Positions 6,911 to 27,656 of a stretch of 62,785 bases of DNA are shown one piece after another. How positions within the stretch are numbered: the stretch's first letter is position 1; each line of letters opens with the position of its first letter. The stretch is from a virus. Location: positions 1 to 62,785 of the IMG/VR virus record IMGVR_UViG_3300031565_000023; one strand, written 5' to 3'. Below the pieces are notes generated by a model, which was given only the letters and a program-made list of their open reading frames with translations, was not told the origin of the DNA and made no database searches. Both the position numbers and the translations under genes were made by a program.

Positions 6911-9900
6911 ATGCCGATACCAACGAGAGAAGAAATACAGCAACTATCTGACGATCTAGCCAATAGATCAAGGAAAGCAGTAACCCCTACCCAAAAACCC
7001 GGTATCACACCGGCTGACCTTAAAGATCTTGAAAGTATCCACCAGGCAAGGTTGGTAAGAGAAAGAAAAGAAGCCATTGGGGAGAGATCTGCCATAACTG
7101 ATGCAGCTATGGGAGTAGGAAGGGGTGCGATTGATTATGCAGGGAGAATACTATTGCCAGAAGCGAGGCTTTACGAAGGTATGTTAAAACCTGGCAGAGA
7201 GCATGGCCCTGTTGGAAGATTTGCAACGAAAAGTATTGAGGCAATAGAGGATTTCAGAGCAAAAAAACCCTGGATGCAACCGAAAGAAGGGTTTGCCGGT
7301 ATGGTTTCAGAGGGGTTTGCCATGACAACCATGTCGCTAATGTCTGCGATCCCTGGTGCGCTTGCCGGTGCTGGTCTTGGCGCTTTGGGAGGAACAGCCG
7401 GAGGCCCTCTTGCCCCCCTTACCGTTCCAGCAGGGGCAGCAGCAGGGTTTGTTTTAGGTGGTGCGGTTCAATTTGGGGCAGCACAAATTGATGATTTTCT
7501 TAATCGGTCAGACAAGGCCGGAGTGCCAAGAGAAAAAAGCGAACCCATAGCGGTAGCAGCCGGTTTAGTCGAAGGCGGTCTTGAAGGATTATTTAACTGG
7601 TTATCACTTATTACTTTTGGATTATCGAAACCCCTTACAATCCCGGCTCAAGTTGCCATGAAAAAGGGAATAGGGGCAGTATTTAAAGTTGGAATTAAGC
7701 AATACGCAAAACAAGCAGCACAATTAGCATCGGTTGAGATTCCTACGGAAATCTTACAAGAAGGTATTGGGGCAGAGTTAGAACGGAAAATAGGAATAGG
7801 AGATACTAGATTTTGGGATGCAGCAAAACAGGTAATTGGACCAACTGCTGTTTCCTCTATCCTATTTACTGGTTTCTTTGGCTCTATTAACATGGTTAAT
7901 AGAAAACGTATTAAAAAAGCCCTGACAGATCCAGCCATCCCGATTGGACAAAGGAAGGAAGCAGCACTTTTAGTCGAAAATGCGGTAAAAGAAGTTAATC
8001 CAGAATTAGCCCAGGTGTGGGGGCATAACGCTTTTGTAGCCATTGAAAACGGAGAAGCAATAGAAATAGACGAATCCCTTGTGGGGGTTGAGGAAGTTGC
8101 GCCAACAGTACCAGGTGAGGAAGTGATCGAGGAAGCGCCTGCCGGTACCGGATTGTCACCCGAAGAAGAATTGGCAGCAACCGAAGAAGATATTGAGAGG
8201 ATCTATACCCCGGAACAGCTTGCAGATCTGGAAAAGGGAGTTGATAAGAAGATAGGGGATCACTTAAATGCTCTCAGCAAAAAAATTGCAAACCTTGAGA
8301 GCCTAAAAAAGAGAACGGACAAGCAGGAATCCAATCTAAAGGCATACAAGGAAGAACGAAAAACAATCATGGAGGAACAGGGCTATGATAAAGAAGGTAA
8401 AAGGAGGCTACCAGGTGGTGTCCGAGAAGGGGAAGAACCTGGGAGGCCCGTACAAGAGCGAGAAGGCGGCGAAAAAGCGATTGAAGCAGGTGGAATTTTT
8501 CAAACACAAGAAGGGGAAGAGATAGAATTGCCTGGCATCGAGTTTAGGGATGATTTGACACCGGCTGATATTGAAGATCAATGGAGTGAGATGGTTGCAA
8601 TTCAGGGCCAGCTCATTGAGAAGAACGCTCCCCGATTAGAAGAAATCGAAAAAGAGCTGGCAACACTCAAGGGCAAGCGGAAAAAACCGGATCAGGAGAA
8701 GCGGAAAGCATTAAGGGAAGAAGCTCAAGAGTTAAGAGAGGAACCGGCAGCCTTTATAGCTGGCGCTGAAAACAGCTTTATTAACGCACAGGAAGATTTT
8801 AATGATCGAGTAATTGCAAGGGCAAAGGAAAAAGGAATAGAGGATGAAGAAACTCAAGGGGAGATTGCGGAGCTTGCCGGAATGATGCTCACCGAAAGGC
8901 AGTACATCGAACAAACTTGGAACTGGCCTATAAGCAAGGTTATTGATGAAGCGATTGACGAATACACAGAAGGGGAAGCCGAAGCAGCGCCAGAGAAGCC
9001 AGCCGAGGAAGAACTGTCAGCAGAAGAAAGGAGAGATTTAGGTAAGGTTATAAAGGAAGCAGAAAAGGCAGAAGCAAAGAAAGCCAAAAAAGTAACAACC
9101 CGAAAACCCACCGAGATCAAACCCGGGGAAACCCCGCAATCTATCGTTAAAGCATTGGGCGGTATTTATATAGAAGAAGGTGGAGAGACAGAGTTTGCAA
9201 CCGTCAAAGAAGGTGGCGGTACGAATATTGGAATAGTAAATAAAAAAGGATTAACCTTTGACATGATAAGGGAGAAGTTTGTCGAAGATCCAGCAATAGG
9301 GGCAGTTACTTCAGACATGACCTTATCTGATTTCAAAGTATGGTTGAAAGACAACTGGAATAAACCTGTTACGGAGAAAGCGATTGAAAAAGCGGCAGAG
9401 GAAGAACATGCAAAAGAGATGGAAAGGCCGGAGGAAGAAGGTAAACTTGAGGAAAGGGTGATAGCTGATCTGGCCCTTGAGGAAGGGGATGTTGTCTACA
9501 CTGCTGGTGATGTCTATAAGGTTAAAAGGGTAGCCGAGGGAGAGGTAACACTCCAGGATGATTTCACCATTACCAAAGATGAATTTGACAAGATCACTCT
9601 TGAAAAGCCGGTTGTAAAGAAAGCGGCTGTTGGAGGATTACCTGCCGAAGTTAAGAAGCAGTTGAATATTAAGGTTGGCAAGAAGGAGGGGGCAGCCGAG
9701 GAAGCCAAAAAGAAAGAGCCGTGGGAGATGACGAGGGGGGAATATTTTAACGCTTCAAGATTCTATCAGTCTGGTCCGCACAAAAATTTAGAGTTGCCAG
9801 ATGGAGAGCGCATTCTTCTCCGCAAGGAATCAACCCTAAAGACTTGGCAAGAGCGCAGCGGCGATTTTGTGGCAGGAACCCATGAGGCACGAATTAAAAA

Positions 9901-12900
9901 AGCCCTATCCGAAAACAAACCCGTTTCCCCCGAAGTCCTAAAGGACTATCCCGAGCTACAAAAGCCAGCCGAGGAAGCAAAGAAAAAAGAACCGACCAGG
10001 GAAAAATTCATCAAAGACCTGGAAATGAAAGGAGTAGCGACAGGATACGAAGGCGAAACCATCTCAATTCAACATAGTGATGAAAGCGGATACTATGTTC
10101 GCATCACCAAGGATGGCATCCGTACAGAGAAAGGTGGAGATCCCAAGGGCGGTGGTTGGGGCTTAGAAGAAGCCAGGGCAAAAGCCCTTGATATGGCTGG
10201 ATTTGAGGAAGCCCCGGAAGCAACCGAGAAAACCAATCCGGTATCCGAGTGGGTAGCTGATCGGGTCAGCAAGGGGAGACTCTTTGTTGCGAAGGATCTA
10301 TTCGATCAGGCCGATAAGTATTTTGGCGGCACACAGGCCCAGGGGAAGTATGTTGCCAAAGATGCCTATGAGTTGATGGAATTGGGCGTTAATCAATATA
10401 TTAAAAAGATCGGCATAGGATTTGAGCCAACTGGTGCTGTAAACAGTCCAGCAGTACATGAAAGAATTAAGTTACTAAAGCAGCTCGTCAACAAACTCCC
10501 CACTCAAACCCGAAGAACAACCGAATCCGGAGAGTTTCAGCAATTCTCTACTCCCCCTCACCTGGCCTTTGTGGTTAATTGGGTAGCCAACCTCAATAAA
10601 GATGATGTGGTCCTTGAACCATCTGCGGGAATCGGGGGGATCGCAGTATTCGCTAAAAACGCAGGGGTGTCAAAGGTAATCGTCAATGAACTGTCAAAGG
10701 ACCGGCTGGATCTGCTCAAACAGTTAGGCTTCGATGAATACTTCAATGAAAACGCAGAGCAGCTCGATAACATACTCCCCGATACCGTAAAGCCAACCGT
10801 AGTCGTTATGAACCCCCCATTTAGCGCTACTGCTGGCAGATTAGAGGGCAAAAGAGATACTAAATTCGCTACCAGGCATATCGAGCAGGCTATGGCAAGA
10901 TTAGAACCCGGGGGAAGACTGGTTGCGATTGTTGGTAAGGGAATGGGGATGAATGCACCGGCTTTCAGGGAATGGTGGAATAAGAAGGATTACAACGTCA
11001 GGGCCAATATTAGAATATCCGGGAAGGAATACCAGAAGTACGGCACTACGTTTGATAACAGAATAATAGTTATTGACAAAAACAGCAAAAAGAAGGATAA
11101 TATAATAACAGGCAAAGTCGAAAGTGTTGAAGATTTATTGCCTTTGTTGGAGGGAATAAGAAATGAAAGAAGCTATCAAGCTAAACGAGAGCCCACTAAA
11201 CCAACTGGCAAAGAGTCTGCTGAAGAAGGTAGAGCCGGAGTGGGGCGAGAACCTTCTTTACTTTCTACAACTGGCACTTTGGGGACTGAACCAGGAAGGG
11301 GTGAGCGTGAGGGGGAACAGGCCATTGAGGGAGAACGTGGAGGCCCTGGCGGCCTGGAAACCGGGGAACCTACAGAAGCTCATCTTCCCGAACGAGAACG
11401 GAGAGGACAGCGAAAGCGACCTTCTGAAACACCAAAAACCCCTGGACCTGGCGACAGAGCTATTGGAACACATAGACAGCCGACTTACCGCCACCCTGGA
11501 AAACTACCCTATCCCGAGGGATCTACCGGCAAACTTCAAGTAGGGGAAGAAAAGGGAAAGAAAGAGAAAAAAGCCCTTACTGACTCTATCTATGACGAAT
11601 ACACTCCCGAAAAAGTAAAGATCAAGGGCGCTCAAAAGCACCCTGGCAAATTAGTAGAATCTGCTGCCATGGCAGCAGTTGAACAACCTACCCCAACCTA
11701 CCAACCGGACCTCCCTAAAGAATCCATCGAATCAGGCAAAATTAGTGATGCTCAATTAGAGGCGGTAGTCTATGCCGGTCAATCCCACGAAAAGACCCTT
11801 CCCACAGGCGAGAGAAGGGGCTTTTTTATCGGCGATGGTACAGGTGTTGGCAAAGGCCGAGAAGCTGCTGCGATTATCCTTGATAACTGGAACAAGGGCA
11901 GAAAGAAATCGATATGGTTATCAGAGAAACAGGGATTAATAAAGGATGCGAAGCGTGATGTTGACGGGGTTGGCTGGAATTCTAAAGTTGTATTCCCATT
12001 AAACAAGACAAAAGCTACCGGCAAGATAGCACAAGAAAATGGCGTATTATTTACAACCTACGACACCCTAAAGAATAAAGCGCGAGACAAGGGAGATGTG
12101 GCCGGCAAGAGAAGGCTTGACCAGGTAGCTGAGTGGTTAGGTGAAGACTTTGATGGTGTTATCGTCTTTGACGAATCTCACAACATGGGAAATGCCATTG
12201 AAACTAAAGTCGGTGGTAGAAAGAAAGATCCTTCCAACAAAGCACTTACCGGGGTAGAACTCCAAAGAAGATTACCCAATGCAAGGGTCCTATATGTGTC
12301 TGCAACCGGCGCAACCGATCCGCTAAACCTGGCATACGCAACGAGGCTAGGATTGTTCGGGGAAGGTACGCCATTCCCCAATGTTGGTACATTTGTCAAC
12401 CAGATTGAAGCGCAGGGCTTGGCAGCTATGGAGTTAGTTGCACGAGATATGAAGGCTATGGGTAAGTACATTTCGAGATCCTTATCCTTCGATGGAGTAA
12501 CATACGAAAGACTTGAGCATAAACTCACCCGGGATCAGAAAGACATTTACAACGAACTTGCTGGTGGATGGCAGATCGTATTAAAGAATGTCCACGATGC
12601 ACTCAAAGCAACAGGCAGGGAAACGGAAACCGGAAAGCAAGTAACGGGGGCAAACAACGGTCAGGCGATATGGAGTCATTTTTGGAGTACGCAGCAGAGG
12701 TTTTTTAACCAGGTAATAACTGCCATGCAAGTACCATCTGCGATAAAGAGCGCAGAGAAAGATCTTAAAGATGGCAAGTCGGTTGTTTTTCAGCTTGTCA
12801 ACACAATGGAAGCAGCTCAAGAAAGGGCATTGTCAAGGATTGAAGAAGGCCAGGCGATTGAGGATCTTGACCTTACCCCGAAACAGCAGCTAATGGATTG

Positions 12901-15900
12901 GGTTGAAAGATCCTTCCCGGTCCAAGAATATGAAAAATATAAAGATGAAGATGGGAATGAGAGGGCAAGGCCGGTATTTGAGGCAGATGGTGAGACACCG
13001 GTAATAAACAAAGAAGCGGTAAGGATGCGAACCGAGCTGCTTGCAAAGATCGGCAGCATAAAGGCAGTTGATAACCCACTCGATCAGATTATCGATTACT
13101 TTGGGGCAGAAAATGTTGCCGAAGTAACCGGAAGGAAAGTAAGATTAATCAGGAAAGAAGGGGTTGAGGGGAAGGTAGAGGAAAAACTAGGGCTTTCTCA
13201 CAGGGAAAAAGACGCTGATGCCTTCATGGATGGCAAAAAGAGGGTTCTTATCTTTAGCGATGCCGGTGGAACCGGGAGAAGCTATGACGCAGATCGGAAT
13301 GTAAAAAATCAGCAAAGGAGATCCCATTACGTTCTTCAACCTGGATGGAGGGCTGATAGAGCAATTCAAGGCATGGGAAGAACGCACAGAGCAAACCAAG
13401 CGATACCGCCTCACTACGTTTTAGTCCATACGGATCTCGAAGCACAAAAAAGGTTTATCTCCACTATTGCAAGAAGGCTGGATCAGTTAGGCGCATTAAC
13501 TAAAGGCCAGCGTCAGACCGGAAGCCAGGGGTTCTTCCAGGCAAGGGATAATCTTGAAAGCCCTCATGCGATAGAGGCACTCCACGGCTTTATAGCCGAT
13601 ACCGCCTATGGACACAACGACATTGATATTGACGAGTTTTACAATCAGACAGGGCTAAGGCTTACGAGTGAGAAGGGCGGTTTGAACTTTATTGAGATGA
13701 AGCAATTTCTCAATCGCTTGCTCTCATTAAAAACAGATTACATGAATAGGGTTTTCAGCGCCTATCAAAAGAAATATGATGAAGTGATTGAGCGTCATAT
13801 CAACAATGGAACACTTGATAAGGGCATTGAAACATTACGAGCTGACAAGGTAGAGAAGGTATCGAGCCAGAAAGTATATACCCACAAGGAAACAGGCGCA
13901 GAAACACACTATGTTGAGATTGACGCTACCCGACCAGCCGACCTCATTAAATACGAAGAAGCAAGGGACGCCTTTAGGGGAGGCACGGCCCAAGGGATTT
14001 TTCAGAACATAAGTAGTGGTAGGGTATGGGTTGCATCTTACAAGAGATTTCACACAGATCCGAATACAGGCAGCATAAATGAATACTACGCACTACTATC
14101 CCCGGCAAGGCATTATCAAACAGCGAAATCCTATGTATTTGAAGATAAGGAAAAATGGAGATCCCTAACCGATGCCGAGTCAAAGGAATTATGGAACAAA
14201 GAATATGCCGATCAGCCGAAAACCGTAACTGATCGAATCCACATGATTACAGGGGTTATCCTTCCAATATGGGATAGGATAAAGGGAAGTACCCGGATAA
14301 TAAGAACACAAACAGATGAAGGGGAAACCCTTTTAGGCCGGATGATCGACCCTGCTCACGTTACGAAAACCCTTCAAAGCCTTCAAGCAGAGCTGAAAGC
14401 ACCAAAGGAAACCCCGGCACAGATCGTTGATAAAATACTGAAAAACAACTATGTGGCTGAACTTGCAAATGGCTGGATAATCAAAAGGGTTAAGTCCTAT
14501 CAGGAAAACAGGATCGAGATAGATGGTCCTGATTACTCACACATGAGGGAATTAACGAGGGCTGGTGTTTTTACGGAAGTCATCGATTACGATACTCGCT
14601 TTTTCATCCCCACCGGGGAAGATGCAGCCAAGATATTTAAGCAGATAACAGAGAGCAGACCGGTATTGAGTTTAAGACCACATAAGCCTGCTACCGCTAC
14701 GTTTGCCAGGGCAGCCAAAGAGGCTGCCGGGATCCCGGTTGAACAAATAAAAAATACAATCACTCCCATCTTAAAAAACCTCAAAGGATTAACCCCTGGG
14801 GTTAATGTGGTTAGCTCAATCTCCGAGCTTTCCCCTGAATTGCAAAAAGAGGCGGGAAAAGTAGCCGGTGCCGGGGTAAAGGCCGTATTTGATAGCGAAA
14901 CCAACGAAATAACACTTGTTGCCGAAGGGCTTTCAAGTATTGAAGAAGCCCAGGAATCACTTTTCCATGAGCTGTACGGTCATTATGGCCCAAGAAAACT
15001 TTTTGGCAGATCTTTTGATCCCTTCCTGGCACAAGTCTATAATGCCTATGGTCCCAAACAATTACAAGACATAGCAGATCTCTATGGCCTTGATTTCAGC
15101 AAAAGGGAAGATCGGCTTACCGCAGCCGAAGAAAAACTGGCACGGATGGCCGGGAAGAATGAAAAGCCTGGTCTTTTAAAAAGAGTATATGCCTATATCA
15201 AAAATTGGCTGCGAAAGATGGGTTTTAATATAAAGCTCAACGATGATGATCTTAAAATAATTGTTGGCGCAACAAAAAGGGCAATAGAGGAAGGATACGA
15301 CATCGGGGAATTAAGGGGAGCTGCAACAAGATTTGCCAGGGAGAAAGAAGCAGGAAAGGCCGAAGAAGTCCTAAAGCAATTCCCGGTAAAATATGAAGGC
15401 ATACAGAAAGGCTTTTTAGGTGCGGAAGATGTAGTTGTATTCAGAAACAAGAAGAATGAAGAATTTAAAGTGCCGGTATCCGAGTTTAATGAGGAAGCGG
15501 TCAGAAAAGCACTAGGCATAAAAGCGCCATCACCGCAGATGGGCTTTAGGTTTGCCAAAGAGAAAGAAGTGTCTCCCACTAAAGAGCCGATGGCTGCCCT
15601 GCCCTCTCAAGTAAGGCCGAGGATCGAGGCAGCAAGGGGGATACCGAAGCCAACCATAGTGCAGAGATTAGAGAAGTTAGGCACACAGATCATGGCATCT
15701 ACCACTCGTCACTGGCCTTTGCTCGACCCGAAAGAACATGGATTTGCGATAAGTAATTTGAGAAGGTTTCAGGAGATCCCCTCATATGCAAAAGACGCAG
15801 GGATGAATCATCTTAAAGATGTGCTATCCGGCCTTACTCCCCAGGAATATGATGCGTTTTCCATGAATCTGCTCTTATCAGATATGATGCACGACATTGA

Positions 15901-18670
15901 TTTTGTGGATCCGGCAACAGGGGAACGCTTGCTCGATCCCGGAAAAGGGCTTCCCTATGATTTTATGGACCGCACGGAAGTCGTTAGCACCTTGAGCAAG
16001 TTTAAAAAGATGGCAGAGGAAAACCCGAAAATAAAAGAGGCCCTGGCTAAACGAAAAAGTTTTATGAGCAAGCTGAAAAAGGATCTCATTGATGCCAAGT
16101 TTCTCAATAAAAATGTTGTTAAAAATGAAGATTACTGGCATCACCAGGTCCTTGAGTATATGCAGAAGAAATACAAAGATACTGGCATCGGAGGTAAAGA
16201 CGTAAGGACACATAAGAAAGGATGGATGATAAGCCGGATCGGATCAATTAAAGATTACAACACCGAATATGCCGAAAGTGAATTTGAGGTTGTATCGCAG
16301 GGGTTAGCGCAGTTAAGGGCAAAAGAGATTATTGACGAGATGGACACGAAATACAACATAATAAAATCATTGAGGGCAAAGGCAAAAGACAAAAACACAG
16401 CTAAACTATGGGAGGTTTTAAGGGATAAAGGAGAGATCGAAACGGACGAATTAGGGAAAGAGATAGATCCGTTAAAACCATTTAGCATAAAGATCGCTAT
16501 GGGGTTTGGCAAGCTAGGGAAGCTGGCGGCAGACGGTGAGCTTTATGGGCCGGTAGAATATGAGGGGATCATAGATGATCTTGCGGCCTCTCATGCAGAA
16601 AAGGCAGTAGCAAAAAAAGACTACCCCGAAGAACCCGAATTGGGGGGATCTGTAACCACGGACAACCCTCTGATCTTCCAGTTTTTGAGCTATCTCATAA
16701 ACAGCAATCAGGATGGCGCTCAAGCAGCAGCTACAATATTCAATGGGATAAGGGAGCGGAATGCCTTTATCAAGGCCGGGTTAGGAAAAGATTTTACCAC
16801 CTGGAAGAATCTCATGCCGGAGGATTATTCAAGCTGGAAACCAAAACCCCATACCGCCTGGTTTATTACCAACGCCATAAATGACAAGATACTGGAAGGC
16901 GTGATTGCAGGGAACAGACAGCTCACAGAGGATGATGCTAAAAAGATACTGGCAAGGGGGATGGATCTGGAGTGGGTAATCCCCACCAACATAGCTGATA
17001 CAATGGACGACATCACCTTCTTCCCGAACAGGAATCCCATTCAAAGAATTGCCGAAAGATCATTGAATCTGTGGAAGCAATACATTTTGATAAATCCTTT
17101 GCGGATAATCAAGTACAATACTAACAACCTCTCCGGGGATGCGGACATAACGCTGGCCTATGATCCAAAGATAATAAAAAACTATTCCATACAGGCAGCG
17201 AAGGACCTGTGGAAGTATCATTATAAATACGATCAACTACCGGCTGATCTTGTAAAGGAAATGGATGTTGCGCGGAAAGAAGCGGTAATAGGATCTGGAA
17301 TGACGATCCACGATATACCCGATGTTGTCCAAAACCTTTCTCACGATAATTTTATGAAATTAATGAGGGGTGAAGGGAAAAACCTTGAATACTATGCAAA
17401 GGCATATTGGGAACATTCAAAGAGGTTTACCACCTGGAGGGAAAACGTATTAAGGCTGGCAGCATTCAGATATTTTAAGGACAGGATAAGGGCCGGCGAG
17501 AAAAATATCTATGGCGTTTCTAATCCTGACGTAGTTGACGATACCCCCTTTGATGGTGATCGTAAGGCAGCTCTTTTGGCAAGGGATCTGCTCGGTGATT
17601 ATGGCAATATCACCCAGGCCGGACAATGGTTGAGAAGAAAGATGATCCCATTTTTTTCATGGCTGGAAATAAACGCCCCCAGGTATTATAAATTATTTAG
17701 AAACCTGCCACTAGAAGGGAGGGGCAAGAAGGGCGCTATATCGATGGCGAGTATGTCGTTTGCGAAAGAAGGAGCTGCGCTGGCATTTAGGGCGAGTATG
17801 CTTTATGGCTCTATCATGCTCTGGAATATGATCTTCTTCCCGGACGAAGAAAGAGAGCTTGGGGAGTCGGGGAGAAGGCAACTTCACATTATCCTACCGC
17901 CTGGCAGGAGGGGTGATGGATCTATTGTTACACTCCGCTTTCAGGGTGCGTTAAGTGATGCACTAGAATGGATTGGGATGGAAGATGCGCCACAAGACAT
18001 GAAGGACCTTCTTACCAGGAAGATGAGCTTCTACGATCTTTACAAAGACGCTTACCAGGGATTTGTCAACAAATTTGCAAGGGGCATCAGGCCGGATCTC
18101 AAGATGGCTTTAATGGAATTGCCCACAGGTAAATCAACCTACCCCGATATATTTAAGTCAAGACCGATCAGGGATAAGCTGGAGCATATCGCAAGGACAT
18201 TCTCCCTGGACATTCCCTATCGGTGGGCTGCCGGAAAGCCACTGAGGGGCAAAGCTACTGGCGGGAGATTAATGCAGGATATAGCAAGTATAGTTTCTTA
18301 CAGGACCGATCCGGGCGAAATGGCTTATTACGACACCCGGAAACTTGCAACAGATTATCTTGAGGATAATAATTTATCAAAGCCGATGGTTGATCCAACC
18401 ACAAAGAGTAACGCACTTTATTATTATAAGAGGGCTTTAAAATTTGCAGATCTAAAAGCTGCCGAGAAATACCTCAAACAGTATCAGGATCTTGGCGGTA
18501 CAACGAAAGGGCTGAAGATAAGTATCAAGCTGGCGCATCCCATGTCCAGCGTTCCCATTAGGCACAGAAAAACATTTTTTGGAAGCCTGACAAAAGGAGA
18601 TAGGGAAAAGGTTAAATCTGCAATCAAGTGGTATGAACAGACCTATCGAGGAAGAAAGGAGGCTGCGTAA
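6911..18670 (+). CDS. Giant polyvalent protein: methylase, helicase, metallopeptidase (DarB-like)
   Basis: One open frame of 3919 codons. In order: a Gly/Ala-rich hydrophobic region at ~130-340 with several possible membrane segments; a Glu/Lys-rich linker at ~400-1130; an N6-adenine methylase with the SAM motif LEPSAGIGG near 1235 and catalytic NPPF at 1301-1304; a low-complexity Arg/Gly/Pro linker at ~1420-1540; a Strawberry-notch-type SF2 helicase with Walker A GDGTGVGKG at 1641-1649, DESH at 1754-1757 and QGMGRTHRANQ at 2153-2163; a zincin-like HELYGHYG at 2686-2693; and a long helical C-terminus with a hydrophobic stretch near 3615-3650, typical of large polyvalent-protein-associated (LPD) regions. 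Methylase plus helicase resembles phage P1 DarB, an antirestriction protein delivered with DNA. Injection with the genome and modification of DNA against host restriction is inferred. Confidence 0.93.
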   Translation: MPIPTREEIQQLSDDLANRSRKAVTPTQKPGITPADLKDLESIHQARLVRERKEAIGERSAITDAAMGVGRGAIDYAGRILLPEARLYEGMLKPGREHGPVGRFATKSIEAIEDFRAKKPWMQPKEGFAGMVSEGFAMTTMSLMSAIPGALAGAGLGALGGTAGGPLAPLTVPAGAAAGFVLGGAVQFGAAQIDDFLNRSDKAGVPREKSEPIAVAAGLVEGGLEGLFNWLSLITFGLSKPLTIPAQVAMKKGIGAVFKVGIKQYAKQAAQLASVEIPTEILQEGIGAELERKIGIGDTRFWDAAKQVIGPTAVSSILFTGFFGSINMVNRKRIKKALTDPAIPIGQRKEAALLVENAVKEVNPELAQVWGHNAFVAIENGEAIEIDESLVGVEEVAPTVPGEEVIEEAPAGTGLSPEEELAATEEDIERIYTPEQLADLEKGVDKKIGDHLNALSKKIANLESLKKRTDKQESNLKAYKEERKTIMEEQGYDKEGKRRLPGGVREGEEPGRPVQEREGGEKAIEAGGIFQTQEGEEIELPGIEFRDDLTPADIEDQWSEMVAIQGQLIEKNAPRLEEIEKELATLKGKRKKPDQEKRKALREEAQELREEPAAFIAGAENSFINAQEDFNDRVIARAKEKGIEDEETQGEIAELAGMMLTERQYIEQTWNWPISKVIDEAIDEYTEGEAEAAPEKPAEEELSAEERRDLGKVIKEAEKAEAKKAKKVTTRKPTEIKPGETPQSIVKALGGIYIEEGGETEFATVKEGGGTNIGIVNKKGLTFDMIREKFVEDPAIGAVTSDMTLSDFKVWLKDNWNKPVTEKAIEKAAEEEHAKEMERPEEEGKLEERVIADLALEEGDVVYTAGDVYKVKRVAEGEVTLQDDFTITKDEFDKITLEKPVVKKAAVGGLPAEVKKQLNIKVGKKEGAAEEAKKKEPWEMTRGEYFNASRFYQSGPHKNLELPDGERILLRKESTLKTWQERSGDFVAGTHEARIKKALSENKPVSPEVLKDYPELQKPAEEAKKKEPTREKFIKDLEMKGVATGYEGETISIQHSDESGYYVRITKDGIRTEKGGDPKGGGWGLEEARAKALDMAGFEEAPEATEKTNPVSEWVADRVSKGRLFVAKDLFDQADKYFGGTQAQGKYVAKDAYELMELGVNQYIKKIGIGFEPTGAVNSPAVHERIKLLKQLVNKLPTQTRRTTESGEFQQFSTPPHLAFVVNWVANLNKDDVVLEPSAGIGGIAVFAKNAGVSKVIVNELSKDRLDLLKQLGFDEYFNENAEQLDNILPDTVKPTVVVMNPPFSATAGRLEGKRDTKFATRHIEQAMARLEPGGRLVAIVGKGMGMNAPAFREWWNKKDYNVRANIRISGKEYQKYGTTFDNRIIVIDKNSKKKDNIITGKVESVEDLLPLLEGIRNERSYQAKREPTKPTGKESAEEGRAGVGREPSLLSTTGTLGTEPGRGEREGEQAIEGERGGPGGLETGEPTEAHLPERERRGQRKRPSETPKTPGPGDRAIGTHRQPTYRHPGKLPYPEGSTGKLQVGEEKGKKEKKALTDSIYDEYTPEKVKIKGAQKHPGKLVESAAMAAVEQPTPTYQPDLPKESIESGKISDAQLEAVVYAGQSHEKTLPTGERRGFFIGDGTGVGKGREAAAIILDNWNKGRKKSIWLSEKQGLIKDAKRDVDGVGWNSKVVFPLNKTKATGKIAQENGVLFTTYDTLKNKARDKGDVAGKRRLDQVAEWLGEDFDGVIVFDESHNMGNAIETKVGGRKKDPSNKALTGVELQRRLPNARVLYVSATGATDPLNLAYATRLGLFGEGTPFPNVGTFVNQIEAQGLAAMELVARDMKAMGKYISRSLSFDGVTYERLEHKLTRDQKDIYNELAGGWQIVLKNVHDALKATGRETETGKQVTGANNGQAIWSHFWSTQQRFFNQVITAMQVPSAIKSAEKDLKDGKSVVFQLVNTMEAAQERALSRIEEGQAIEDLDLTPKQQLMDWVERSFPVQEYEKYKDEDGNERARPVFEADGETPVINKEAVRMRTELLAKIGSIKAVDNPLDQIIDYFGAENVAEVTGRKVRLIRKEGVEGKVEEKLGLSHREKDADAFMDGKKRVLIFSDAGGTGRSYDADRNVKNQQRRSHYVLQPGWRADRAIQGMGRTHRANQAIPPHYVLVHTDLEAQKRFISTIARRLDQLGALTKGQRQTGSQGFFQARDNLESPHAIEALHGFIADTAYGHNDIDIDEFYNQTGLRLTSEKGGLNFIEMKQFLNRLLSLKTDYMNRVFSAYQKKYDEVIERHINNGTLDKGIETLRADKVEKVSSQKVYTHKETGAETHYVEIDATRPADLIKYEEARDAFRGGTAQGIFQNISSGRVWVASYKRFHTDPNTGSINEYYALLSPARHYQTAKSYVFEDKEKWRSLTDAESKELWNKEYADQPKTVTDRIHMITGVILPIWDRIKGSTRIIRTQTDEGETLLGRMIDPAHVTKTLQSLQAELKAPKETPAQIVDKILKNNYVAELANGWIIKRVKSYQENRIEIDGPDYSHMRELTRAGVFTEVIDYDTRFFIPTGEDAAKIFKQITESRPVLSLRPHKPATATFARAAKEAAGIPVEQIKNTITPILKNLKGLTPGVNVVSSISELSPELQKEAGKVAGAGVKAVFDSETNEITLVAEGLSSIEEAQESLFHELYGHYGPRKLFGRSFDPFLAQVYNAYGPKQLQDIADLYGLDFSKREDRLTAAEEKLARMAGKNEKPGLLKRVYAYIKNWLRKMGFNIKLNDDDLKIIVGATKRAIEEGYDIGELRGAATRFAREKEAGKAEEVLKQFPVKYEGIQKGFLGAEDVVVFRNKKNEEFKVPVSEFNEEAVRKALGIKAPSPQMGFRFAKEKEVSPTKEPMAALPSQVRPRIEAARGIPKPTIVQRLEKLGTQIMASTTRHWPLLDPKEHGFAISNLRRFQEIPSYAKDAGMNHLKDVLSGLTPQEYDAFSMNLLLSDMMHDIDFVDPATGERLLDPGKGLPYDFMDRTEVVSTLSKFKKMAEENPKIKEALAKRKSFMSKLKKDLIDAKFLNKNVVKNEDYWHHQVLEYMQKKYKDTGIGGKDVRTHKKGWMISRIGSIKDYNTEYAESEFEVVSQGLAQLRAKEIIDEMDTKYNIIKSLRAKAKDKNTAKLWEVLRDKGEIETDELGKEIDPLKPFSIKIAMGFGKLGKLAADGELYGPVEYEGIIDDLAASHAEKAVAKKDYPEEPELGGSVTTDNPLIFQFLSYLINSNQDGAQAAATIFNGIRERNAFIKAGLGKDFTTWKNLMPEDYSSWKPKPHTAWFITNAINDKILEGVIAGNRQLTEDDAKKILARGMDLEWVIPTNIADTMDDITFFPNRNPIQRIAERSLNLWKQYILINPLRIIKYNTNNLSGDADITLAYDPKIIKNYSIQAAKDLWKYHYKYDQLPADLVKEMDVARKEAVIGSGMTIHDIPDVVQNLSHDNFMKLMRGEGKNLEYYAKAYWEHSKRFTTWRENVLRLAAFRYFKDRIRAGEKNIYGVSNPDVVDDTPFDGDRKAALLARDLLGDYGNITQAGQWLRRKMIPFFSWLEINAPRYYKLFRNLPLEGRGKKGAISMASMSFAKEGAALAFRASMLYGSIMLWNMIFFPDEERELGESGRRQLHIILPPGRRGDGSIVTLRFQGALSDALEWIGMEDAPQDMKDLLTRKMSFYDLYKDAYQGFVNKFARGIRPDLKMALMELPTGKSTYPDIFKSRPIRDKLEHIARTFSLDIPYRWAAGKPLRGKATGGRLMQDIASIVSYRTDPGEMAYYDTRKLATDYLEDNNLSKPMVDPTTKSNALYYYKRALKFADLKAAEKYLKQYQDLGGTTKGLKISIKLAHPMSSVPIRHRKTFFGSLTKGDREKVKSAIKWYEQTYRGRKEAA
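11163..11543 (+). CDS. Nested gene in another frame of the giant ORF
   Basis: A 126-residue frame lying wholly inside the giant gene, shifted by one base. GGAGGG (11149-11154) sits 8 bases before the ATG, as good as any SD in the genome. The product looks like a real globular helical protein (NQLAKSLLKKVEPEWGENLL, LYFLQLALWGLNQ, LDLATELLEHIDSRL). The giant protein over the same bases is a low-complexity Arg/Gly/Glu/Pro linker, the usual appearance of an out-of-frame translation. It lies exactly between the methylase and helicase domains, suggesting that a small gene once separating two genes was overprinted when they fused. Function unknown. Confidence 0.65.
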   Translation: MKEAIKLNESPLNQLAKSLLKKVEPEWGENLLYFLQLALWGLNQEGVSVRGNRPLRENVEALAAWKPGNLQKLIFPNENGEDSESDLLKHQKPLDLATELLEHIDSRLTATLENYPIPRDLPANFK

Positions 18671-25607: not shown

Positions 25608-25636
25608 TTGACATCTGCGTACAATTAATATATGCT
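25608..25636 (+). promoter_or_regulatory. Sigma70-type promoter for the HNH gene
   Basis: TTGACA (25608-25613), a 17-base spacer and TATGCT (25631-25636). This gives transcription from about 25643, so the HNH protein must start at 25671 and not at the upstream ATG (25632) that lies inside the -10 element. The TTGACATCT opening recurs at other promoters of this phage (39641, 50137). Confidence 0.7.
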
Positions 25637-25670
25637 GTCCTCAAACATTAACTTATTTGAAGGCAGTATA

Positions 25671-26345
25671 ATGATTACAAAAAAATGGGTTACAAAAAAA
25701 TGTTTGGCATGTAAAAGGGAGTTCAGCTCTTACGTTTCGGAAGAAAGAAAATATTGTTCGCCCAAGTGTCGTGGGATTGGAAGGCGAGTTAAAAAACCAC
25801 CATGTATTGTTTGTGGTAGTTCTTTGCCATTGAGAAAGGGCAACAAAAAATATTGTTCTTTAAAATGTAGAACGAAAGATTGGACAGGCAAGAAAAAACC
25901 CCATACATGGAACATTGAGAAAAGGGAGTGCAAGTTTTGTGGAAAAGCATTTACGGTTGGTGGAAGATATGCAGATAAGATACACAAAGATGCTTTATTT
26001 TGCTCAAATGAATGCTCAAGCAAATCGCAGAGAATCACCATAGATGAGTTTTGGGTAAACGGTGGGAAAACTTCAAGTAAGAATTGGGAAGAATACCGAG
26101 AAAAAATTTTAAAGAGGGATGGTTATAAATGTGTCTTTTGTGGCATCAGTCGAAACTTACAAATACATCACATGCTCCCCAGGGAATATGGTGGCTCACA
26201 CACTAAAGGAAATTTAGTTGCGTGTTGTCGGCATTGTCATGGAAGTATTGATAGGGTTATTCGTCTAATTGCCAATAACGATCCTGACAACCAAAAAGAG
26301 GTTATCAATAAAATGATGCAGCTTATTGGAAAACAAAAAACATGA
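25671..26345 (+). CDS. HNH endonuclease with multiple zinc-binding knuckles
   Basis: A 224-residue protein. It has four CxxC-type pairs in the N-terminal half (CLACKREF, CIVCGSS, CKFCGKAF and CSPKC/CSLKC/CSNEC pairs) resembling zinc-knuckle DNA-binding repeats, then an HNH nuclease: CVFCG at ~154, HH at 166-167 and CRHCHG downstream. The gene is visibly richer in A and T than its neighbours and has its own promoter. It lies between structural genes, which is typical of a free-standing homing endonuclease inserted into a phage genome. Double-strand cleavage of intron-less or sibling alleles is the known role of the family. Confidence 0.88.
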   Translation: MITKKWVTKKCLACKREFSSYVSEERKYCSPKCRGIGRRVKKPPCIVCGSSLPLRKGNKKYCSLKCRTKDWTGKKKPHTWNIEKRECKFCGKAFTVGGRYADKIHKDALFCSNECSSKSQRITIDEFWVNGGKTSSKNWEEYREKILKRDGYKCVFCGISRNLQIHHMLPREYGGSHTKGNLVACCRHCHGSIDRVIRLIANNDPDNQKEVINKMMQLIGKQKT

Positions 26346-26358
26346 AACCTAAAAAAAT

Positions 26359-26388
26359 TTAACATCTTGCATGTGAATTTCACACTAG
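26359..26388 (+). promoter_or_regulatory. Promoter-like element with 13-bp palindromic operator (site A)
   Basis: The perfect palindrome TGTGAATTTCACA at 26372-26384 follows TTAACATCTTG at 26359-26369. The whole ~30-base element is nearly identical to 59959-59988, differing at few positions. TTAACA could be a -35 with a weak CACTAG -10. It lies upstream of the glycosyltransferase-methyltransferase gene, which it probably controls under the phage repressor. Confidence 0.6.
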
Positions 26389-26390
26389 AG

Positions 26391-26415
26391 GGTAGTGGGC
26401 GAGCTGCTCACTACC
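26391..26415 (+). promoter_or_regulatory. Leader hairpin before glycosyltransferase gene
   Basis: GGTAGTGGGC (26391-26400) pairs with GCTCACTACC (26406-26415) around the 5-base loop GAGCT, with one G-T pair. It is not followed by a T-run, so it is not a terminator. It sits between the operator and the SD (GGAGGG) of the gene at 26433 and may affect mRNA stability or translation. Confidence 0.55.
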
Positions 26416-26432
26416 TGGAAATGGAGGGAATA

Positions 26433-27656
26433 ATGCAAAAAAAACTAAAGATTGCCGTACCATATAATACGGCAATAGATCCAGAAGCGCAGATATGTGT
26501 GTTTAATGTTGCCCTGCATTTGCAATCAAAGGGCTACGAGTGCGAGCCCAAGTTTAAAGAAGGGACATATCTTTCAACGCTGAGAAACGCTTTTTCGTGG
26601 GAAGCTCTACAGAAGGGACAGGATCTCCTGTTTGTTGATAGCGATATGATCTTTGGGCCATCGGAAGTTAATAGCCTGTTGGAAGCAGGCAAGGACATTA
26701 TCGGTGGGCTTTACTATGCCAGGAGAAAGCCTTACTTTCCGATTGCCTACAGGATTTTGAAACCCGATGATATTGTTCTGCCCGATAAGTACAGTACCGA
26801 AATTGTAGAGGGCGACAACTACTTTGCCGGTATGAAATACCATGAGATACCTGATGATGTTTTCACTCATCCTGATGGGTTAGGGGTAGGCACAGGATTT
26901 CTCTATATCAAAAACCATGTGCTTGAAAAGATGTGGACTACAAAAGTAGTACAGGAGTTTGGAAGGCCATTCAATTTTTTCCCCATGAAAAACGGTGATG
27001 AAATCAAGGAGGATCTCGCCTTTTGTTTGCGCTGCAACAAGCAAGGGTTTGAGGTTTACTGCCACCCGGGTTTAAACCTGGCTCATCTGGGGAAAATCAG
27101 GATCAATAAGAACACTCACCTGGACCATATCGGCAGGGAGAAACATTTTTACAGTAACGATATTCAAGGCTGGATGAATTTTAACGAGCTGAATTGGCTT
27201 TATCAAACTGCGAAAAAGATGGATACCATAGTTGAGATCGGATCATGGAAAGGAAGATCTACCCATGCATTGCTATCCGGCACGCCTGGGAAGGTTACTG
27301 CCATTGACACTTTTTGTGGTAAGGCTGCCCTGAAAATTTGCTACAAAGAAAATAAAGATACCGTTCTTGCCGAGTTTATGAAGAACACAGAGAAATTTAA
27401 TAACCTTAATATGGTGATCGGCAATAGCGTTGAGGAAGCCACGTTCTTTGCGGATAAATCAGTTGATATGGTTTTCATTGATGGGGGCCACGCTTATGAG
27501 GAAGTGAAGGCCGATCTGCTTGCTTGGAAGGGTAAGCCTAAAAAACTGCTTTGTGGGCACGATTATACTTTCGATGGTGTTTATCATGCGGTAAGAGATG
27601 TGATCGGGGAAGTGCGTCAATACGAAACAATCTGGTTTAAGGAGATTTCAGCATGA
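26433..27656 (+). CDS. Glycosyltransferase-methyltransferase fusion
   Basis: 407 residues from the ATG at 26433, chosen for its GGAGGG SD. An earlier in-frame ATG at 26367 overlaps the operator. The N-terminal ~230 residues look like a GT-A glycosyltransferase with a DxD motif (D69-S-D71) after a LLFV strand. The C-terminal domain from ~255 is a class I SAM methyltransferase of the Methyltransf_24 type: EIGSWKGRS from E268, and FIDGGHAYEEV with D350. Such pairs usually modify sugars on surface polysaccharide or virion proteins. The gene sits behind a repressor-type operator, so it may be kept silent in lysogens. The substrate is unknown. Confidence 0.8.
   Translation: MQKKLKIAVPYNTAIDPEAQICVFNVALHLQSKGYECEPKFKEGTYLSTLRNAFSWEALQKGQDLLFVDSDMIFGPSEVNSLLEAGKDIIGGLYYARRKPYFPIAYRILKPDDIVLPDKYSTEIVEGDNYFAGMKYHEIPDDVFTHPDGLGVGTGFLYIKNHVLEKMWTTKVVQEFGRPFNFFPMKNGDEIKEDLAFCLRCNKQGFEVYCHPGLNLAHLGKIRINKNTHLDHIGREKHFYSNDIQGWMNFNELNWLYQTAKKMDTIVEIGSWKGRSTHALLSGTPGKVTAIDTFCGKAALKICYKENKDTVLAEFMKNTEKFNNLNMVIGNSVEEATFFADKSVDMVFIDGGHAYEEVKADLLAWKGKPKKLLCGHDYTFDGVYHAVRDVIGEVRQYETIWFKEISA

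Follow-up and report, generated by a model that had tools for sequence, protein, structure and literature searches.

The genes of the Rz/Rz1 spanins, which are lysis lipoproteins, are a familiar case of a small gene embedded in the +1 frame of a second phage gene. A gene may also lie out of frame within a phage methylase gene, as in the ShiLan type, in which the inner gene encodes an HNH endonuclease (PMC11855218). In phage P1, the small protein Ulx, encoded adjoining darB, aids the localisation of DarB and acts with it against EcoK/EcoB restriction (PMC9024508, PMC12810830). Polyvalent proteins that carry a methylase–helicase dyad with a Strawberry-notch helicase have been surveyed (PMC5512222). 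Here we describe a small gene nested in another frame of such a dyad gene, found in a viral sequence of 62,785 nt (IMG/VR record IMGVR_UViG_3300031565_000023; the window). The features concerned are the following.

6911–18670, + strand: giant polyvalent ORF, 3,919 aa (ORF and domain matches)
10475–11146, + strand: DNA adenine methylase domain of the giant protein, approximate limits (PHROG 9133/6263 matches and homologous block)
11149–11154, + strand: Shine–Dalgarno (SD) motif GGAGGG of the nested gene, 8-nt spacer (sequence)
11163–11543, + strand: nested gene, 126 aa, +1 frame (ORF, comparative, selection and fold evidence)
11177–11683, + strand: giant-frame interdomain linker, predicted disordered (structure model)
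11636–12556, + strand: AAA_34 helicase domain, Strawberry-notch type (Pfam match)
13073–13834, + strand: Helicase_C_4, C-terminal domain on Strawberry notch homologue (Pfam match)

The giant protein joins an adenine methylase and, after it, a Strawberry-notch SF2 helicase in one polypeptide, and is thus a polyvalent dyad. The nested ORF starts with ATG, is complete within the giant ORF and is preceded by an in-frame TAA one codon upstream (11157–11159). Its product is helical (14.3 kDa, pI 5.2), whereas the giant frame across the same bases is rich in Arg, Gly, Pro and Glu. The methylase match stops near 11116–11146 and AAA_34 starts at residue 1576 (position 11636), with the nested ORF exactly between the two domains. 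A preliminary description of the window had reported a 126-codon ORF with GGAGGG eight bases upstream, placed precisely at this junction; the ORF and its start signal are present as stated, and the placement agrees with the PHROG and Pfam boundaries. Elsewhere in the window, an HNH endonuclease gene (25632–26345) precedes a gene (26367–27656) whose PHROG match is of the DNA methyltransferase type.

Scans for the methylase–linker–helicase block in viral contigs and bacterial genomes gave about 160 loci, of which 120 were distinct (identical products removed, linker of at least 240 nt, giant frame open); these span phages, prophages and conjugative plasmids. The preliminary description had held that stops in the nested frame of relatives would speak against the gene, and the opposite was found: a +1 ORF of roughly 85–165 codons occupies the same place in 119 of the 120 loci. 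The start offset is identical in 98. In 117 the start follows an SD core of 4 nt or longer (a figure somewhat inflated by picking the start partly by SD strength); among out-of-frame ATGs in the helicase, used as controls, the share is 32%. BLAST linked 87 nested products into one cluster, and a profile recognised 102 of the 120 as one family while matching none of the giant-frame peptides. The other 17 nested ORFs, mostly from rumen-type Bacillota elements (for example, L006, L118 and L137; L041, L055 and L126; L050 and L124), occupy the same site without a sequence link to the family, and are either very diverged members or different genes in the same slot. Bacteroides phage BS-TP4 likewise has an unannotated 119-codon +1 ORF at the junction of its giant gene (PQ571277.1, 10032–10388) that is not recognisably homologous to the main family. 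A Synergistaceae contig (L134), in which the 94-aa linker lacks the nested ORF and leaves only 44 codons open, was counted as an absence and is an apparent loss. Independent genome searches added more chromosomal copies, some nested and some stand-alone, whose ORF is intact; the copy number was exactly one in all 36 matching records from phages or bacteria. Cultivable carriers include Methylotuvimicrobium buryatense 5G and Sporomusa ovata DSM 2662. Two matches, L177 and L185, were regarded as weak false positives.

Comparing synonymous with nonsynonymous variation in both frames, as the preliminary description had proposed, places the constraint on the nested frame. Nested codon positions 1, 2 and 3 correspond to giant positions 2, 3 and 1, and over 13 nucleotide-aligned pairs they carry 271, 207 and 466 substitutions, respectively (p about 1e-23). 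The giant wobble position is therefore the least variable in the overlap, the reverse of the helicase region, where giant positions 1, 2 and 3 carry 685, 385 and 2,136. A simple count-based estimate, conditional for each frame, put omega within the overlap at about 0.42 in the nested and 1.26 in the giant frame, with 0.13 for the helicase control. When the nested proteins of 119 loci were synonymously recoded, 701 giant-frame stops were expected in the overlap and none was seen; loci with giant-frame stops had been filtered beforehand, a step that took out only one locus (L131). T is depleted at the nested wobble position (5–12% in the five loci checked) because the giant frame is kept free of stops. 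Judged by these substitutions, the nested frame is the one under protein-level selection and the better conserved of the two messages, and the giant frame over it is kept stop-free only, otherwise behaving as an unconstrained linker. The earlier proposal of a functional gene in the overlapping frame, with the giant frame secondary, is borne out by this pattern.

Structure prediction separates the two products in the same way. AlphaFold2 (72-sequence alignment) predicted a seven-helix fold for the nested protein (mean pLDDT 85.7, pTM 0.79), and a model of the giant-frame linker from six sequences was disordered over 11177–11683 (model residues 260–428; pLDDT mostly 22–29). The predictions thus give a confident helical fold in one frame and a disordered linker in the other, matching the globular product and low-complexity linker that had been described from the window alone. 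Pfam and PHROG gave only scattered weak single-member matches to the family; a profile search of the PDB found no convincing relative (best match, E 0.017), fold searches of the PDB and BFVD returned nothing similar (all E above 1), and the nested product alone as query had no database match in phages or plasmids. No HNH endonuclease domain was detected in the nested protein (no Pfam or PHROG match; all-helical fold). Phages H66, Parlo and vB_Pun_Y3 have methylase-containing giants of other architectures with no nested family member, and a scan of the sense-strand ORFs of P1 darB, made without a profile search, recognised none. Taken together, selection, conservation and predicted fold make it very probable that 11163–11543 is a genuine dual-coding gene within the giant gene.

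Profile searches of about 1,290 bacterial genomes also revealed four stand-alone copies with no methylase–helicase within about 9 kb.

L186, 8963–9397: stand-alone copy (profile search)
L193, 9042–9434: stand-alone copy (profile search)
L194, 8760–9125: stand-alone copy (profile search)
L195, 5346–5768, minus strand: stand-alone copy (profile search)

L193 and L194 contain zero and one giant-frame stop, respectively, against about 10 expected, which indicates that they left the nested state recently rather than preceded it. L186 (10 stops; about 13–15 expected) and L195 (4; 6 expected) are near expectation and therefore free of the dual-coding constraint, and their intact ORFs suggest that the protein is useful in its own right. 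The L186 copy returned no relatives as a scan query; it sits in a mosaic (7400–10800) made up of short repeats and of fragments of genes (HD domain, ADP-ribosylglycohydrolase). Three of the four copies lie within a few kilobases of restriction genes—McrBC near L186, a complete type I system near L193, and a type IIG enzyme with an SNF2/PLD helicase near L194. Because the four genomes hold only about 3–5 N6-methylase loci each, this link is suggestive, although it involves four copies and defence islands attract mobile DNA anyway. Two further loci that first gave the impression of stand-alone copies, L187 and L188, were set aside as decayed elements: L187 (G639:C6:105983-106339) belongs to the family but has two TAG codons in frame and lacks a methylase-helicase match nearby; it is probably decayed, with TAG recoding as the alternative.

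Absences of the nested gene are informative about its history. Methylase–helicases of about 1,285–1,590 aa, found mostly on alphaproteobacterial chromosomes, lack the nested gene, and their linkers are no longer than 196 nt; the nested ORF is nevertheless kept in two proteins of merely 1,337 and 1,580 aa (L106 and L108). In a tree of 147 methylase–helicases, the short nested-less proteins branch within the nested diversity, and three changes are needed, the Synergistaceae contig included. Three losses of the nested gene are the simplest reading of this topology rather than proof, as the tree is unrooted and quick. The preliminary description had suggested that two genes, methylase and helicase, were fused by read-through over a small gene that kept its function. 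That order of events is not supported, in view of the escape of L193 and L194 from the nested state, two of the four stand-alone copies keeping the giant frame nearly or wholly stop-free, and of the position of the nested-less fusions in the tree; no relative was seen to encode the three proteins in genes of their own.

What the nested protein does is a separate matter, on which we lean, tentatively, towards a partner of the methylase–helicase. Its translation would start at an SD and ATG of its own within the mRNA of the giant gene, the giant frame being read through as a disordered linker that joins methylase to helicase, so that a small helical protein dedicated to the methylase–helicase could be made on the same message. 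Such a partner would help to load, deliver or activate the enzyme as the DNA of the phage or plasmid arrives in a new cell, in a way comparable to the help that Ulx gives DarB in P1. In every phage examined the nested gene is linked to the junction, phage and plasmid carriers alike retain it, and it is lost with the short dyads; together with the Ulx precedent, this suggests such a role. Counting against it are the stand-alone copies without a methylase–helicase in cis and a product with no relative of known function; Ulx itself was rejected as a homologue, the two sharing no sequence homology.

Alternatively, the nested protein could itself be an anti-defence effector, such as an acidic restriction-enzyme inhibitor, that shares the gene for co-expression only. 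The low median pI of the family (4.8) and the restriction genes near the stand-alone copies, in genomes with few N6-methylase loci, are compatible with such an effector, but the copies number only four in regions where mobile DNA gathers anyway, the net charge is modest, and no stand-alone copy was found in the phage and plasmid records searched; we regard this role as rather unlikely. Lower still stands a morphogenesis or chaperone protein needed only for packaging the giant protein in the virion, for which one could cite the position of the giant gene in the window, after genes with virion-structural PHROGs, and the record that mass spectrometry detected a giant protein with a methylase in phage H66. 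However, the host gene of Methylomonas methanica (L099) belongs to a conjugative element, beside relaxase, coupling protein, topoisomerase and Trb genes, and the nested gene is equally intact there in the absence of a virion. The nested gene is therefore not tied to virions, and we mark a virion-only role as improbable for this reason. More speculatively, the nested protein might bind and control the methylase–helicase, and the stand-alone copies might have been taken up by bacteria into restriction islands to serve as a counter-counter-defence, neutralising the antirestriction enzyme as it comes in, a scenario to which we give little weight.

A partner made from its own start also has to be set against +1 ribosomal frameshifting from the methylase frame into the nested frame, which would yield a methylase–nested fusion. 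An SD-like element does lie just upstream, as at known frameshift sites, but an ATG stands at initiation spacing in 115 of the 120 loci (GTG in four, TTG in one), a nested-frame stop occurs within two codons upstream of the start in 33, the window among them, and the stand-alone L193 copy begins with a GGAG SD of its own, all of which make frameshifting very improbable. Chance was assessed by recoding linkers synonymously with the codon usage of the gene itself. Against this background the 127-codon +1 run of the window has p of about 0.1, which is weak evidence from one sequence because linkers poor in Leu, Ile, Val and Met rarely create +1 stops. The original single-sequence argument is therefore weak alone and the case rests on comparison, where the retention of the ORF across loci, its conserved start and the pattern of substitutions are together far beyond chance. 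A spurious ORF, kept open in the +1 frame by that linker composition, draws on the long +1 ORFs that often survive synonymous recoding of single linkers, but is already refuted by the position-specific substitutions, omega, the homologous family, the conserved start and SD, and the confident fold, barring an undetected artefact common to these results.

We found no report of this overlapping gene in the open-licence literature. Although conserved in phages and conjugative plasmids whose hosts belong to several phyla, the family is missing from Pfam and PHROGs, and annotation pipelines appear to have overlooked it as a whole. The very likely reason is its position, out of frame in a gene that ranks among the longest that these elements carry. 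It offers a concrete candidate partner for DarB-like antirestriction enzymes. It is also an unusually clear case of dual coding (a folded protein in one frame, an unconstrained linker in the other), in which both loss and stand-alone escape are visible, and hence a test bed for the origin and dissolution of overlapping genes.

Compared with Rz/Rz1, the outer protein here is a giant methylase–helicase and the nested frame dominates selection. The ShiLan type resembles the present locus in having an other-frame gene in a phage methylase gene, with the host frame stop-free and read as a loop, but there the inner gene is an inserted mobile HNH endonuclease gene that lacks an SD. The nested gene described here, in contrast, encodes a helical, non-HNH protein, starts at an ATG behind an SD, and is conserved across its carriers. 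Ulx and DarB offer the parallel of a small protein genetically linked to a methylase–helicase that is injected with phage DNA, although Ulx is encoded by a separate gene downstream of darB. The host gene of the nested ORF is one of the surveyed polyvalent dyads, but that survey describes no overlapping gene and the word 'overlapping' is absent from its text (PMC5512222). Overlapping phage genes are already known; what is new here is the protein family, and a folded protein encoded within the linker of a giant one.
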